From: Lysobacter antibioticus
Lineage (GTDB): Bacteria; Pseudomonadota; Gammaproteobacteria; Xanthomonadales; Xanthomonadaceae
Assembly: GCF_000731095.1 (NCBI RefSeq)
Contig: NZ_JMTZ01000167.1
Coordinates: 1 to 32,438, forward strand
Length of the DNA stretch: 32,438 nucleotides
Reading direction: 5' to 3'
This document shows positions 1 through 32,438 of this stretch, piece by piece (position 1 is the first letter of the stretch; each line of letters begins with the position of its first letter). Below the pieces are notes generated by a model that saw only the letters and a program-made list of their open reading frames with translations, was not told the origin of the DNA and did not search any database. Made by a program: the position numbers and the translations under genes.

Positions 1-254
1 CTTGTCCTATCGAAAAACGGCGCACGTCCTGTGCGCCGCCCTCCGGGTCTACGGTTACATCGCGAGCTCGGTACTGCGCCAAGCTTGCACAGCAAAAGCA
101 AGACAGCAAAACAGCCGGCTTAACGGTGCAATCGCGAACGCGAACCGCGAATTGTTTCATTACTGCACAAATCCGCCCCGAATCCTGGGGTCACCCCTAG
201 TCCCCCGCAAGCCAGCGCAACTGTAAAGTCGCGACCATCCTCACAGTTGCGCCC
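1..254. other. Leader region upstream of the LysM gene, no gene seen
   Basis: No convincing gene lies here. The open frame from base 2 has no recognisable protein features. The stretch around 75-180 is richer in A and T than its surroundings and probably carries the promoter of the gene starting at 255, but no clear -35/-10 pair stands out. No Shine-Dalgarno-like sequence is obvious before 255. Confidence 0.4.
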
Positions 255-27194: not shown

Positions 27195-28493
27195 CTAGGT
27201 GGGGGCCTGAACGGCCTCAAGCAAGGGGCGCAATGCTTCGCCGTTGGCCTGGGCGAACAGGCGCTGGGCGTCGGCCACGGCCAGGTCGACCTCGACCAGC
27301 CAGCCGTGCTCGTCGGCCTGTTCCGAACGCACCGCGCCGAGCTCGTGCAGGCGCGCGCGCAGGCGTGCGTCCTGCGGCGCGATCCGCACGCTGCCGGCGA
27401 CGTGGCGCAGCTGCAGGGCCTCGCCCAGCGCGCTGCGCAGCAGGTCCAGGCCCTGGCCGTCGCGGGCCGACACCCAGACCCGGCTGCTGTCTTCGCCGGG
27501 CCGGTCGATGCGCGGCTCGACCCCGTCGAGGCGGTCGATCTTGTTGAACACCAGCACCTGCGGCAGATCGCCGGCGCCGATTTCGTTCAGGACCGCGTCG
27601 ACCTGGGCGATGCGCTCGTCGCGCAGCGGGTCGGCGGCGTCGATCACGTGCAGCAGCAGGTCGGCCTCGCGCGCCTCCGACAGGGTCGAGCGGAACGCGG
27701 CGACCAGCTCATGCGGCAGGTCGCGGACGAAACCGACCGTGTCGGCCAGCACCGCGGCGCCGCCGGAGAGCTCGATCCGGCGTACGGTCGGGTCGAGGGT
27801 CGCGAACAACTGGTCGGCGGCGTAGGCCTCGGCACCGGTCATCGCATTGAACAGGGTGGATTTGCCGGCGTTGGTGTAGCCGACCAGGGCCACGCGCGGT
27901 AGTTCGCTGCGCAGGCGCGCGCGGCGCATCTGGGTGCGCTGCACTTCGACCTTGTCGAGGCGGCGCTGCAATTGCTCCAGGCGTTTCTGCAGCAGGCGGC
28001 GGTCGGTTTCGAGCTGGGTTTCGCCGGGGCCGCGCAGGCCGATGGAGCCGCCGCGCTGGCGTTCCAGGTGGGTCCAGCCGCGCACCAGGCGCGTCGCCAT
28101 GTGCTTGAGCTGGGCCAGTTCGACCTGCAGCTTGCCTTCCGAGCTCTTCGCGCGCTGGGAGAAGATGTCGAGGATCAGGCCGGTGCGGTCGACCACGCGC
28201 CGTTCGAGGAAGCGCTCGAGATTGCGCTCCTGGCCCGGCGACAAGGGGTGATTGACCAAGATCAGGTCGGCGCCGCTGGCCTCGGCCGCGGCCTTGACCT
28301 CGTCGAGCTTGCCGCTGCCGATCAGGGTCGCCGCGTTCGGGCGGTCGATGCGCGCGGTCAGGACCGCGGCCACGCTCGCGCCCGCCGACCGGGCCAGGTC
28401 GGCGAACTCTTCCAGCAGGTCCTCATCCGGCGGCCCGCCGGCATGAGGCTGGATCAACAGCGCGTGCTCACCTTTGCGCGAACGTTCAAACAC
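27195..28493 (-). CDS. hflX: GTPase HflX
   Basis: 432 residues. A ribosome-associated GTPase that splits stalled or stressed ribosomes. N-terminal HflX domain with the glycine-rich helix region (TLIGSGKLDEV; LILVNHPLSPGQERNLE), the GGSIGLRGPGETQLETDRR segment, then the G domain: G1 GYTNAGKST, G3 DTVGFVRDLP, G4 NKID. The start is GTG 28493, 41 bases after hfq and with only a weak GCGGA upstream; the product of this frame starts M-F-E-R. Downstream hflK begins 145 bases beyond the stop. Gene order is as in many gammaproteobacteria. Confidence 0.96.
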   Translation of the reverse strand: MFERSRKGEHALLIQPHAGGPPDEDLLEEFADLARSAGASVAAVLTARIDRPNAATLIGSGKLDEVKAAAEASGADLILVNHPLSPGQERNLERFLERRVVDRTGLILDIFSQRAKSSEGKLQVELAQLKHMATRLVRGWTHLERQRGGSIGLRGPGETQLETDRRLLQKRLEQLQRRLDKVEVQRTQMRRARLRSELPRVALVGYTNAGKSTLFNAMTGAEAYAADQLFATLDPTVRRIELSGGAAVLADTVGFVRDLPHELVAAFRSTLSEAREADLLLHVIDAADPLRDERIAQVDAVLNEIGAGDLPQVLVFNKIDRLDGVEPRIDRPGEDSSRVWVSARDGQGLDLLRSALGEALQLRHVAGSVRIAPQDARLRARLHELGAVRSEQADEHGWLVEVDLAVADAQRLFAQANGEALRPLLEAVQAPT

Positions 28494-28534
28494 TGGTCCG
28501 CACCGTCGGCGCGAGCGCCGCCATCGTCATCGGA

Positions 28535-28816
28535 TTACTCAGTTTCGTCGCCGCCGTCGCCATTGTCGCTGCCATCGGCGGACTGCACATAGCCGCCGCC
28601 CGGACCGACGCGGACATTGCGCGCGGGAACCACGGTGGAAATGGCGTGCTTGTAGACCATCTGACTCACGGTATTGCGCAACAGCACCACGAATTGGTCG
28701 AAGGATTCGATCGTGCCCTGCAGCTTGATGCCGTTGACCAGGTAGACCGAGACCGGTACGCGTTCGCGACGCAGCGCATTCAGGAAAGGATCCTGTAGGG
28801 ATTGCCCCTTAGACAT
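28535..28816 (-). CDS. hfq: RNA chaperone Hfq
   Basis: 93 residues. Sm1 motif: [39 protein letters not shown] (residues about 8-46), followed by the Sm2 motif [10 protein letters not shown]. Forms a hexameric ring that pairs small RNAs with mRNAs. The C-terminal tail is acidic and Gly/Asp-rich. Start ATG 28816. The 181-base gap to miaA (28817-28997) likely carries the hfq promoter; no clear box can be named. hflX follows after 41 bases. Confidence 0.98.
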
Positions 28817-28997
28817 CTTCTAATTCCCCAGCATGTTCTAGTTATTAGGACGGCACGCCCGGCACCGATGGTGCGGAGCACGGCCGTATCGCCGGCTGTT
28901 GTCCCCACAGGGCGACCGGCCGATGTTAACGCAAGTGATAGCAAACATTGCGACCCGGTTCCGGGTTTACGCGCCTCATTCTAAGCGCCGAATGTGT

Positions 28998-29969
28998 CTA
29001 TAGCGGGCCGGCGCCCATAAACAGGGCCAGGGCGCCCTCCAGTTCGGCCGCATCGCGCAAAGGATCGAACCAGCGGGCGTCAAGCTCGCCGCGCAGCCAG
29101 GTCAACTGGCGCTTGGCGAGCTGGCGGGTGGCGTAAACGCCGCGATCGCGGAATTCCCGGGCGTCGTAGTCGCCGTCGAGGTGCTCCCAGGCCTGGCGGT
29201 AGCCGACCGCGCGGATCGCCGGCAAGTCCTGCGGCCGCGGATGCGCCTGCAGCGCCGGCAACGCGCGCAGGCCGCGGACTTCATCGAGGAAACCCTGGGC
29301 GAGCATCTGCTCGAAGCGGCGCTCGATACGGGCATGCAGCACCGCGCGCTCGGCCGGCGCCAGCACCAGCTTGAGCACGCGGTACGGCAGGCGCGGCGCG
29401 GCGAGCGAGGCGCGGCGCCACTCGCTCATGCTGCGCCCGGACAGGCGGAACACTTCCAGCGCGCGCTGGATACGCTGGGCGTCGGTGGCGTGGATGCGCG
29501 CCGCGGCCTCGGGATCGACCTGTGCCAGTTGCTCGTGCAGGGCCGCCCAGCCGAGCGTCTCGGCTTCGGCGGCGAGTTGCGCGCGCGTGGCCGGATCGGC
29601 CTCGGGCATGGCCGACAGGCCGTGCAGCAAGGCGTGGAAGTACAGGCCGGTGCCGCCAGCGAGGATCGGCAGGCGCCCGCGGCCGGCGATGTCGTCGAGC
29701 GCGCGGCGGGCGTCGAGCGCGAACTCGGCGGCCGAATACGGCTGCCAGGGCTCGCGCACGTCGATCAGGTGATGGCGCACGCTGGCCAGCTCGGCGGCGC
29801 TCGGCTTGGCCGCGCCGATGTCCAGGCCGCGATAGACCAGGGCCGAATCCACGCTCACGATCTCGCCGCCGAGGCGCCGCGCCCACTCCAGGGCGAGCGC
29901 GGTCTTGCCTGACGCGGTCGGGCCCATCAGGGCGATGACGAGCGGACGGGGATCGGCGGAAACGTTCAT
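28998..29969 (-). CDS. miaA: tRNA dimethylallyltransferase
   Basis: 323 residues from ATG 29969. Adds a dimethylallyl group to A37 of tRNAs that read UNN codons. P-loop GPTASGKT at residues 16-23; [22 protein letters not shown]; then [16 protein letters not shown], and [17 protein letters not shown]. The last part [18 protein letters not shown] is the conserved substrate/metal region and [16 protein letters not shown] the tRNA-binding helix. This start was preferred over upstream starts (up to 30113), which add 48 non-conserved residues; no strong ribosome binding site is seen. Upstream lies a 1.5-kb repeat region. Confidence 0.96.
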
Positions 29970-30088
29970 GCGGGACGGCGGCACGGCGGTGGAGCGAGCC
30001 GGCAGCCTCGCACAGGCGCGGGCATCGAGGAAGCGGCGGTTCGGCCCAACCTGCCCCACTCGCGACCTGGTCGGCGCGGCAACGCGCG

Positions 30089-30190
30089 CTCCACAGACGT
30101 TGTGGAGAAGCACTGGGGCAAGCCTGTGGACAAACCCATCGCGCCCAGGCCTGGCAAGGGATCACGCTTGTTTGTCGTTTTTTTGACCAG
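30089..30190. repeat. Module 1 of the folP-miaA array (degenerate)
   Basis: Contains an inverted repeat CTCCACA-N5-TGTGGAG (30089-30107), a DnaA-box-like TGTGGACAA (30125-30133), and a T-rich end closing TTTTTTTGACCAG. It lacks the TGCGGACA box. Confidence 0.6.
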
Positions 30191-30200
30191 GCCATGACGT

Positions 30201-30300
30201 TTGTTCACACAGCCTGTGGACAAGCCTGCGGACAGTCTGTCGCGGAGCAAGCGCAATCCGTTGCGGCGTAACGCTCGCGATAAGTTTGATCATTTATTGA
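30201..30300. repeat. Module 2 of the folP-miaA array
   Basis: Inverted repeat TGTTCACA-N5-TGTGGACA, with TGTGGACAA at 30215-30223, followed at 12-base spacing by TGCGGACAG (30227-30235). The end is AT-rich (GATAAGTTTGATCATTTATT). Confidence 0.75.
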
Positions 30301-30325
30301 TCACTTATTTTTCTTGACTTGCATC
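30279..30325. promoter_or_regulatory. AT-rich patch with GATC sites, like a DNA-unwinding element
   Basis: About 45 bases with very low GC in a GC-rich genome, holding GATC at 30288 and 30299. GATCACTTATTTT matches 12 of 13 positions of the oriC 13-mer GATCTNTTNTTTT. It is the 3' end of module 2 in the array. Confidence 0.4.
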
Positions 30326-30392
30326 TCATAGTCGGCATCCCCAACCGATCCGAATCGCCGCACGACCACGGCGCGCGCAAGCGACGCGAAGC

Positions 30393-30496
30393 GCTGTCCA
30401 CAATCGCTGTGGACAAACCTGCGGACAGACACCGTGCAACCGTGTTTCACGCCTTATGTGACAAGGCCGCGACAAGTTTGATCAATTTTTCGCCAC
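30393..30496. repeat. Module 3 of the folP-miaA array
   Basis: Perfect inverted repeat TGTCCACA-N5-TGTGGACA (30395-30415), then TGCGGACAG, GTTTCACGCCTTATG, CAAGGCC, and an AT-rich end TTTGATCAATTTTT. Confidence 0.85.
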
Positions 30497-30660
30497 GCGT
30501 CCGTCGCGAGGAAATCCGCGGGAATCCGTCGCCGAAGGCTTGACATGGAAGGCGATGCAGCACTCGATGAACGCCCGTCGCCGCTACGGACACAAACGGC
30601 ATGGTGTCGTATCGCCTCGCAACAAACAGGCGACCGCATCGCCCGCGGCATGCGCGCAGC

Positions 30661-30763
30661 GATGTCCACAAAGCCTGTGGACAAACCTGCGGACAGCGGC
30701 GATGCAATCGGGTTTCACGCCTTATGCCGCAAGGCCGAAGCAACTATGGCGAAAATTTGACCA
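30661..30763. repeat. Module 4 of the folP-miaA array
   Basis: Perfect inverted repeat TGTCCACA-N5-TGTGGACA (30663-30683), TGCGGACAG, GGTTTCACGCCTTATG, CAAGGCC, then CTATGGCGAAAATTTGACC. Confidence 0.85.
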
Positions 30764-30921
30764 CGCACGAAAAGGGCCGAAATCGCCTGGCCGCGCATCG
30801 GTCCCGCCTGGCGCGAACGAGGCTCGAACGCGCATGGCAGGCTTCGCTCCCGCCCGGGATCGCGCAAATTTTCCGGCCGATGCACAAGCGCAGGCCGCTC
30901 ATTGCGCGAAACGGCTTGCGC

Positions 30922-31024
30922 AATGTCCACAATCGCTGTGGACAAAGCTGCGGACACATACGATGGAATCGGGTTTCACGCTTTGTACGGCAAGGGCGCA
31001 CGGATTATGGCGAAATTTTGACCG
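30922..31024. repeat. Module 5 of the folP-miaA array
   Basis: Perfect inverted repeat TGTCCACA-N5-TGTGGACA (30924-30944), TGCGGACA, GGTTTCACGCTTTG, CAAGGG, TTATGGCGAAATTTTGACC. Confidence 0.85.
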
Positions 31025-31199
31025 CCGCTCCCGTGTCGAAGAACAAGCCTTGCCCACCGCGTCAAATGCTTGACTTCGCGAGCGCCCGCTCAGGTCAGGA
31101 TCGAAGGCATCGATACGGCTCGATGCTTCGGTGCCCGAAACTCAGGAGGGACGGCACCGCAGCTTCGGGCGCATCGAAGCGAGCGCATCGCGCCGTCCG

Positions 31200-31290
31200 C
31201 GATGCCTGTGGACAAGGCTGCGGACAATCTTCATGCAAGGTGTTTCACGCCTTGCGCGGCAAGGCTTTCGCGATCATGGCGATTGTTGAA
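31200..31290. repeat. Module 6 of the folP-miaA array
   Basis: The right arm TGTGGACAA (31207-31215) is kept, the left arm is lost; TGCGGACAA, TGTTTCACGCCTTG, CAAGGC, and a diverged end ATCATGGCGATTGTTGAAG. Confidence 0.75.
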
Positions 31291-31462
31291 GACGAGATGG
31301 CGCTAAGCGGGCGACAGATCGCTCGCAACGATCTGCCGCTGAACGCACTGCGCCGCAGACCCTGCGCTGCGGCGATTGCGGTTTTCCGCGCTCAAGCCGC
31401 GGGCCGCCGCTTCCGTTCCGGTAATCGAGGCTACGCGCCGGGCATCGCAACGGCGAAGGGAC

Positions 31463-32365
31463 TTACTCGTCGTCGGGCCACTTCAGACCCGGCGCCGACG
31501 CGGCCGCGCGCCGCGGCATCGGCTGCGCCGCGACCGCTTCCCAGACCTTGATCGCATCGACGGTGGCGGCGACGTCGTGCACGCGCAGCAGCTTCGCGCC
31601 GCGCTGGGCCGCGATCAGGTGCGCGGCCACCGAACCGTGGACGCGCTCGTGCGCGTCGTCGCGGCCGGTAAGCTCGCCGATGCTGCGCTTGCGCGACAGC
31701 CCCGCGAGCACCGGCACGCCGAGTTCGCCGAAACGCTGCAACTGCGCAAGCAAGGCCAGGTTGTGGGCGAGGGTCTTGCCGAAGCCGAAGCCGGGATCGA
31801 CGACGATCCGTTTCTTGGCGATGCCGGCCATCTCGGCGGCGAACAGACGCTCGACCAGGAAACGATGCACTTCGGCGACGACGTCGTCGTAGACCGGGTC
31901 GGCCTGCATCGAACGCGGCTCGCCCTGCATGTGCATCAGCACCACCGGCACGCCGAGTTCGGCGGCGACATCGAGCGCGCCCTCGCGGCGCAGCGCGTAG
32001 ACATCGTTGATCAGGCCGGCGCCGGCCGCGACCGCGGCACGCATGACCTCCGGCTTGGAGGTGTCGATGCTGATCGGCAGCCCGGTCTCGCGGGCTAGAC
32101 GTTCGATCACCGGGATCGTGCGCCGCAGCTCTTCCTCCAGCGGCACCTCGGCGGCGCCGGGGCGGGTGGATTCGCCGCCGATGTCGAGCAGGTCGGCGCC
32201 CTCCCCGGCCAGCTTCAGGCCATGCGCCACGGCAGCCTCGAGGCTGTTGTGAGCGCCGCCGTCGGAGAAGGAATCGGGCGTCACGTTGACGATGCCCATG
32301 ATCCGCGGGCGGTCGAGGACGAGGCGGCGGCCGTTGCAGTCGAGGGTGGTGGCGAGTTCGAACAT
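31463..32365 (-). CDS. folP: Dihydropteroate synthase
   Basis: 300 residues. Joins 4-aminobenzoate and the pterin diphosphate to dihydropteroate in folate synthesis; target of sulfonamides. Conserved pieces: GIVNVTPDSFSDGG (residues 24-37), LLDIGGESTRPGA, PISIDTSKPEV, GLINDV, VVLMHMQGEP, VVDPGFGFGKT, and LAGLSRKRSIGELTGR. The length and end are normal. ATG 32365 has no Shine-Dalgarno: the upstream bases are a GGGAATC-type repeat (from 32378). In relatives it commonly neighbours miaA; here 1.5 kb of repeat-bearing non-coding DNA separates them. Confidence 0.97.
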   Translation of the reverse strand: MFELATTLDCNGRRLVLDRPRIMGIVNVTPDSFSDGGAHNSLEAAVAHGLKLAGEGADLLDIGGESTRPGAAEVPLEEELRRTIPVIERLARETGLPISIDTSKPEVMRAAVAAGAGLINDVYALRREGALDVAAELGVPVVLMHMQGEPRSMQADPVYDDVVAEVHRFLVERLFAAEMAGIAKKRIVVDPGFGFGKTLAHNLALLAQLQRFGELGVPVLAGLSRKRSIGELTGRDDAHERVHGSVAAHLIAAQRGAKLLRVHDVAATVDAIKVWEAVAAQPMPRRAAASAPGLKWPDDE

Positions 32366-32377
32366 TGGATTGGGGAC

Positions 32378-32438
32378 CGGAATCGGGAATCGGGAATCGG
32401 GAATCGGGAATCGGGAATCGGGAATCGGGAATCGGGAA
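32378..32438. repeat. Heptamer tandem repeat GGGAATC in front of folP
   Basis: The 7-bp unit GGGAATC is repeated 7.7 times without error from 32385 to the window end, with one imperfect unit before it; it continues out of the window. It begins 13 bases before the folP start codon and so lies in its leader and promoter region. Similar heptamer repeats occur in intergenic DNA of Xanthomonadaceae (recalled). Confidence 0.9.

Follow-up and report, generated by a model that had tools for sequence, protein, structure and literature searches.

What is encoded in the 1,493 bp between folP and miaA (29970-31462) of Lysobacter antibioticus, a gap that carries a row of related repeats? The stretch of DNA analyzed here (the window, 32,438 nucleotides) ends on the minus strand with hfq, miaA, this gap and folP, and the array of repeats lies directly upstream of miaA, with hfq next. 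An earlier note on the same DNA had described six modules of DnaA-box-like inverted repeats, had seen no fitting coding function, and had proposed a DnaA-titrating, datA-like site, a DnaA-reactivating, DARS-like site or the operators of another protein. The absence of a coding function agrees with our results, as none of three tested open reading frames of the gap gave a Pfam match; a tRNA search of 28000-32438 was also negative. The contig end, upstream of folP, is occupied by a GGGAATC-type tandem repeat (32385-32438).

The gap holds five full modules and one degenerate module on the plus strand (Table 1). In each core, box I (NTRTCCACA) is reversed and separated by five bases from box II (TGTGGACAA), which is followed after three bases by box III (TGCGGACAN), the offsets being 14 and 12. 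TGTGGACAA occurs six times in the gap (30125, 30215, 30408, 30676, 30937 and 31207), and the starts of the full cores are spaced by 193, 268, 261 and 270 bp. Full cores 1-5 correspond to modules 2-6 of the earlier note, whose observations on recurrence, on the 268/261/270 spacings and on a palindrome across N5 that is perfect in modules 3-5 and matches at 7 of 8 positions in module 2 were all reproduced; in module 6, the palindrome is poor (CGTCCGCG). Its count of six stands for five full modules only, as its module 1 resolves into a degenerate core plus a lone box. TGCGGACA begins 12 bp past box II in modules 2-6 and is followed in modules 3-6 by GTTTCACG, the longer form GTTTCACGCCTT being exact in modules 3, 4 and 6 and carrying one change in module 5.

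Table 1. Coordinates in the window of the array elements and the two flanking genes.
Feature	Position	Strand	Remarks
miaA	28998..29969	-	Pfam IPPT; one flank of array
Degenerate three-box core, 14/12 register	30087..30121	+	4 mismatches to core pattern
Lone perfect DnaA box TTGTCCACA	30125..30133	-	
Core 1: TTGTTCACA N5 TGTGGACAA N3 TGCGGACAG	30201..30235	+	1 mismatch
Fis-consensus-like site of core 1 (+52)	30288..30302	+	0 mismatches
Core 2	30394..30428	+	0 mismatches
Middle element GTTTCACGCCTT...AAGGC of core 2	30444..30467	+	
Fis-consensus-like site of core 2 (+51)	30480..30494	+	1 mismatch
Core 3	30662..30696	+	0 mismatches
Middle element of core 3	30712..30735	+	
Fis-consensus-like site of core 3 (+51)	30748..30762	+	1 mismatch; within palindrome 30747-30763
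Core 4	30923..30957	+	0 mismatches
Middle element of core 4	30973..30996	+	
Fis-consensus-like site of core 4 (+51)	31009..31023	+	1 mismatch
Core 5, box I degenerate (CCGTCCGCG)	31193..31227	+	2 mismatches to core pattern
Middle element of core 5	31242..31265	+	
folP	31463..32365	-	Pfam Pterin_bind; other flank of array

The dnaA-dnaN region of the window genome carries TTGTCCACA at a distance of 36 bp from a second box; of eight other genomes, five have TTATCCACA in this region at the same 36-bp distance, TTGTCCACA is present in G001, and two are without a perfect box there. At its DNA-binding end, DnaA has the sequence GRDHTTVLHACRQI, close to that of E. coli DnaA. Boxes I and II of the array are sound DnaA boxes; compared with the E. 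coli consensus TT[A/T]TNCACA, box II (TTGTCCACA) deviates at one position and box III (CTGTCCGCA, read inwards) at three. Perfect TTRTCCACA 9-mers number 21 in the 5.5-Mb genome (35 for the pattern read backwards): six in the array, two at a site between genes for a response regulator and a hybrid kinase (RR/HK site), two at a site beside priA, two by dnaA (oriC) and nine elsewhere, 12 of the 21 being accounted for by three DARS-like loci and oriC. This concentration, together with TTGTCCACA in the genome's own dnaA-dnaN region, strongly supports the identification of the repeats as DnaA boxes, and judging from the sequence, DnaA very likely binds the array. The array does not lie beside dnaA, as an oriC would; dnaA of the window genome and its downstream boxes are on another contig (C105).

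The layout of the core recurs in two regulatory sites of E. coli. In MG1655, the DARS1 core reads TTATCCACT N5 TGTGGATAA N3 TGTGTATTA and the DARS2 core TTATTCACC N5 TGTGGATAG N3 TGTGAAGAA, both with offsets of 14 and 12 and with box I reversed; DARS1 differs from the core pattern at one position and DARS2 at three, against six for the closest stretch of the datA region. In the available text of PMC5742627, equal spacing and a reversed box I are named as what DARS1 and DARS2 have structurally in common, and in the corresponding portion of PMC8682772, boxes I and II are opposed for head-to-head DnaA contact; the array displays both the 14 and 12 spacing and a box I opposed to boxes II and III. 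Because the number, order, orientation and exact spacing of the boxes equal those in DARS1 and DARS2, the DARS-like option is supported. DARS1 (bioD-uvrB) further resembles the array in being a short unit (101 bp, releasing ADP in vitro without added factors, according to the available part of PMC5742627), but it is single-copy, has TTATCCAC-type boxes, and lies at another locus. DARS2 (rppH/ygdT-mutH) has an identical core geometry, and in both E. coli sites, box III has one mismatch, compared with three in the array. A degenerate second core in the 14/12 register and in the same orientation follows the DARS2 core by 316 bp (L079:2952-2986; four mismatches, the next places having five), a faint sequence hint that E. 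coli DARS2 may derive from a tandem.

Like the array, datA is a non-coding cluster of DnaA boxes away from oriC, its minimal form comprising boxes 2, 3 and 7 and one IHF site as described in the available text of PMC5742627. Searched with the pattern of the array core, however, the datA region shows no three-box core, its closest stretch having six mismatches, and the array cores are without an IHF consensus at +70..105. The datA-like option was rejected on these grounds, the layout lending it no support.

Comparison of the folP-miaA gap across the genus, as the earlier note had proposed, revealed cores in all 20 genomes searched, with 3-10 cores per gap and arrays reaching ten copies over ~2 kb. 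In 15 of these 20 genomes, a lone core lies at the RR/HK site, where genes for a response regulator of the LuxR type and for a hybrid kinase converge on it (for example, L011:4900-4934, G000:C12), the kinase resembling NahK/ErcS at a score below that model's cut-off. A second array of 4-5 cores is present in five of the 20 (L045, L044, L057, L059 and L063), on the contig of the first array, ~57-69 kb away from it and in opposite orientation; that of G005 adjoins UPF0093 and alkaline-phosphatase genes. Among named species genomes, the exact array pattern was found in 26 stretches, 25 of them from Lysobacteraceae and one from Paraburkholderia bannensis. In this betaproteobacterium, the single array-type core (L215:4490-4522) is located just upstream of a frame that is parE-like by eye.

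Across the family, a core with ≤2 mismatches is present in 291 of 297 genomes (two genomes in the backwards control). Outside the genus there are mostly one or two cores per genome, mainly of the TATCCACA type among the matches listed, and cores in the folP-miaA gap were also seen in other genera read. At most family loci read, and in the window genome too (C32:2506), the core adjoins priA; no PriA match was obtained at the loci of family genus g22 (L118-L120, L137). Three tandem copies of the priA-side core are found at L150, L151 and L156 (family genera g14 and g46).

To describe the flanks, we assembled 142 array cores (87 distinct) from 20 genus gaps (108), four gaps of other genera (12) and five second arrays (22), using ≤6 mismatches plus TGTGG at box II as selection, with the degenerate window core at 30087 left out and one entry (L051 1749) shifted out of register by masked N; since the set was chosen in the 14/12 register, its size is no independent test of the spacing. 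Position 1 of box I is T in only 30 of the 142. A Fis consensus with ≤1 mismatch occurs at +49..53 in 114 of the 142 cores (9.9 after shuffling), and in only 61 (0.8) if the consensus is applied strictly; in the window, four of five cores have such a site, one of them strict, and the best candidate at core 5 has three mismatches. The same place is marked by a palindrome, TGGN2AN5TN2CCA, which is found at +49..51 in 90 cores and anywhere in +30..90 in 91 (shuffled mean 0.08). Lone RR/HK cores behave similarly, with 11 of 15 Fis-like (1.1 shuffled), three strictly so, and all 15 carrying TGGN11CCA. An IHF consensus at +70..105 was found in none of the 142 array cores at ≤1 mismatch (1.0 shuffled) and in none of the 15 lone RR/HK cores. 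A middle element, GTTYCACG with T/C alternation, is present in 94 of the 142 array cores and is followed by an imperfect palindrome, GCCTT...AAGGC; GTTYCACG resembles half of a ParB parS site.

The priA-side cores differ as regards IHF. Of 34 distinct ones, a set that includes several tandem copies and leaves out the four g22 loci without a PriA match, 33 have an IHF-like site with ≤1 mismatch at +81..87 (0.6 shuffled), 31 have TGGN11CCA at +47..53, and 19 are Fis-like (2.5 shuffled), eight strictly. DARS2 is activated by IHF and Fis, as reported in the available parts of PMC4245941 and PMC8682772. Thus, the array, with no IHF consensus, resembles DARS1 rather than DARS2, and the priA-side site, with IHF- and Fis-consensus-like sites, resembles DARS2. 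The order of the elements is not the same, however: at the priA side, the core is followed by the Fis-like site (+51) and then the IHF-like site (~+85), whereas in the available portion of PMC4245941, Fis sites 2-3 of DARS2 are separated from the core by the IHF sites. At +49..53, DARS1 and DARS2 each depart from the Fis consensus at two positions, and at +70..104 from the IHF form at two and one, respectively; the exact Fis-type flank is therefore not shared with the array. As TGGN11CCA suits the RR/HK and priA-side cores better than the Fis consensus does, the predicted binder at ~+51 may not be Fis but another protein. Profile matches over the cut-off were obtained for fis in 20 of 20 genus genomes and for an ihfA-type gene in 19 of 20.

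The geometry extends well beyond the family. Within the class, taken to be Gammaproteobacteria, a core with ≤1 mismatch was found in 161 of 229 genomes and 140 of 196 genera, with no backwards-control match in any row; conservation of the DARS2 core in gamma-proteobacteria related to E. coli is described in the available portions of PMC4245941 and PMC8682772. Among 20 hand-picked class sites, mostly from larger contigs (L176-L195), the Fis consensus at +50/51 is strict in 12 and the IHF consensus at +85/86 perfect in seven; five of these 20 sites lie by priA and one by uvrB. Forty further zero-mismatch sites (L223-L262) were drawn from among the matches listed rather than from all, one at a contig end being skipped, and PriA was sought within ~1 kb in loci of ≤1.9 kb: 37 are Fis-like (2.7 shuffled), 29 IHF-like (0.7 shuffled) and 28 both, 12 have PriA nearby, and no DnaA match occurs at any of these 40 loci. 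Among the 28 at which neither PriA nor UvrB matched, 25 are Fis-like and 19 IHF-like, which argues that the geometry is independent of the neighboring gene. Box III at the priA-side and class sites is mostly of the TGTG[GC]A type, among the matches listed.

Chromosomal position was compared in ten genomes, two of which have three contigs, using hand-entered and partly rounded coordinates: the distance from the array to dnaA amounts to 28.0-33.8% of the chromosome in nine of the ten, that from the RR/HK site to 40.9-47.3% in eight of nine, and that from the priA site, located in six of the ten, to 8.1-11.1% in five. The exception is in each case G001, a single contig, with 10.0%, 20.7% and 47.7%, respectively, which suggests a rearrangement or misassembly. 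E. coli DARS1 is similarly placed, lying 32.9% of the chromosome from oriC, with DARS2 at 20.6%.

Taken together, the array probably consists of tandem modules of the DARS1 type that would reactivate DnaA, and on the best reading of these data, its modules would promote release of ADP from DnaA and also titrate the protein. The sequences themselves establish the layout with its exact geometry, its place and conservation, the clustering of boxes and the consensus matches; protein binding, nucleotide exchange and an effect on timing are what we infer, nucleotide exchange because the layout of the core is identical to that of a known device, DARS. ADP-DnaA would bind the facing boxes I and II, and box III would add a third DnaA protomer; the opposed AAA+ domains would then loosen ADP, and apo-DnaA would depart and take up ATP. 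A Fis-like protein ~51 bp downstream may keep the flank in place or bend it, the role that accessory sites have at DARS2. Through its tandem copies, the array would provide more exchange capacity per chromosome while also holding DnaA back, its dose would double on passage of the fork through the locus, and the priA-side site would serve as an IHF-gated, DARS2-like partner. The weak box III, the incomplete Fis consensus and the degenerate box I of core 5 speak against a DARS function, and so do the flank that DARS1 and DARS2 do not share, the scarcity of T at position 1 of box I, the lack of an IHF consensus at array and lone RR/HK cores, and the position of the array in G001, 10% from dnaA.

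The same weak box III would suit an array that only titrates, in which high-affinity boxes hold DnaA and delay initiation without any nucleotide exchange. This alternative, unlikely but of some weight, is also in keeping with the six of 21 perfect genome boxes that reside in the array, with a copy number that varies from 3 to 10 within the genus, and with the titration proposed for the denser boxes near oriC of E. coli in the available text of PMC12371093. Moreover, carrying DARS2 on a multicopy plasmid leaves E. coli severely impaired in colony formation (PMC4245941, available part); many strong copies may therefore be harmful, which favors weak or titrating sites. Boxes near oriC would, however, sequester DnaA without requiring a fixed geometry. 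Neither a fixed three-box arrangement nor a constant distance to a Fis-like site is needed for titration, but array cores and class sites alike show both, and the array, which in nine of ten genomes is 28-34% of the chromosome away from dnaA, does not lie close to that gene.

The location directly upstream of miaA, and then hfq, would also be compatible with DnaA-dependent control of these genes, the boxes acting as operators of a miaA promoter. We consider this quite improbable: cores are also located between convergent genes (RR/HK), by an alkaline-phosphatase gene (G005) and beside priA, they number up to ten over ~2 kb, and their geometry is kept whatever the neighbor. In addition, a promoter and terminator scan, with a single sigma-70-like promoter model, returned no match in 29950-31480.

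Two further alternatives are far less credible. Repeated units of ~150-330 bp resemble tandem small RNA genes, and both the box I/II and the GCCTT...AAGGC elements are able to pair as hairpins. Among the 142 cores, however, position 3 of box I faces position 7 of box II as G-C in 80, A-C in 54, T-C in seven and G-T in one, so that a change in box I leaves the pair unrestored, which speaks for a DNA-bound protein and against an RNA hairpin; many copies also break the second stem with no compensating change, G-G standing at its first pair in 28 of 94. An Rfam search of 29900-31600 (E up to 5) was negative, and on this result, the pair counts and the promoter and terminator scan, an RNA gene row or RNA hairpins were rejected.

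An ordinary dispersed repeat that contains DnaA boxes by accident is equally implausible: some arrays do look recently duplicated (206-207-bp spacings; 318-339 bp in G002 and G003), but positions are syntenic across the genus, the boxes are kept while the spacers diverge, and at ≤2 mismatches, the genome contains only one other array-type core, that at the RR/HK site, and one priA-side core. A genome scan for the palindrome and module, suggested in the earlier note, found few copies, concentrated in the folP-miaA gap. The exact palindrome occurs four times (three in the array, one at the RR/HK site; none in the backwards control), and the pair of boxes II and III, at ≤1 mismatch, six times, five of them in the array (control, none). 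These counts exclude the scatter over hundreds of intergenic sites that the note had named as contrary evidence.

We know of no tandem DARS. Neither tandem DARS nor the class-wide core/Fis/IHF geometry is described in the portions of the open-licence PMC literature available to us, which also yielded nothing on point for DARS or DnaA boxes in Xanthomonas, Lysobacter or Pseudomonas. Compared with the known single DARS, the tandem arrangement is what is new in this putative array. More tentatively, and at slightly less than an even chance, DARS may be a class-wide control element rather than a device of the E. coli group, composed in fixed geometry of the core, a Fis site at +51 and an IHF site at ~+85, often by priA, from which DARS1 and DARS2 would be rearranged descendants, and of which Lysobacter would have multiplied the IHF-free part into arrays of 3-10 units, with the number of recharging units setting the timing of replication. 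If this is true, replication timing would follow the number of such units on the chromosome.

To our knowledge, the rise of ATP-DnaA before initiation has been worked out mainly in the E. coli group. The syntenic array, with its 3 to 10 units within the genus, constitutes a natural dose series, and the fixed geometry of core, Fis-like and IHF-like sites can be used to search the whole class for sites of the DARS type. With both, the DnaA-recycling model can be tested directly in a bacterium outside the enterics.
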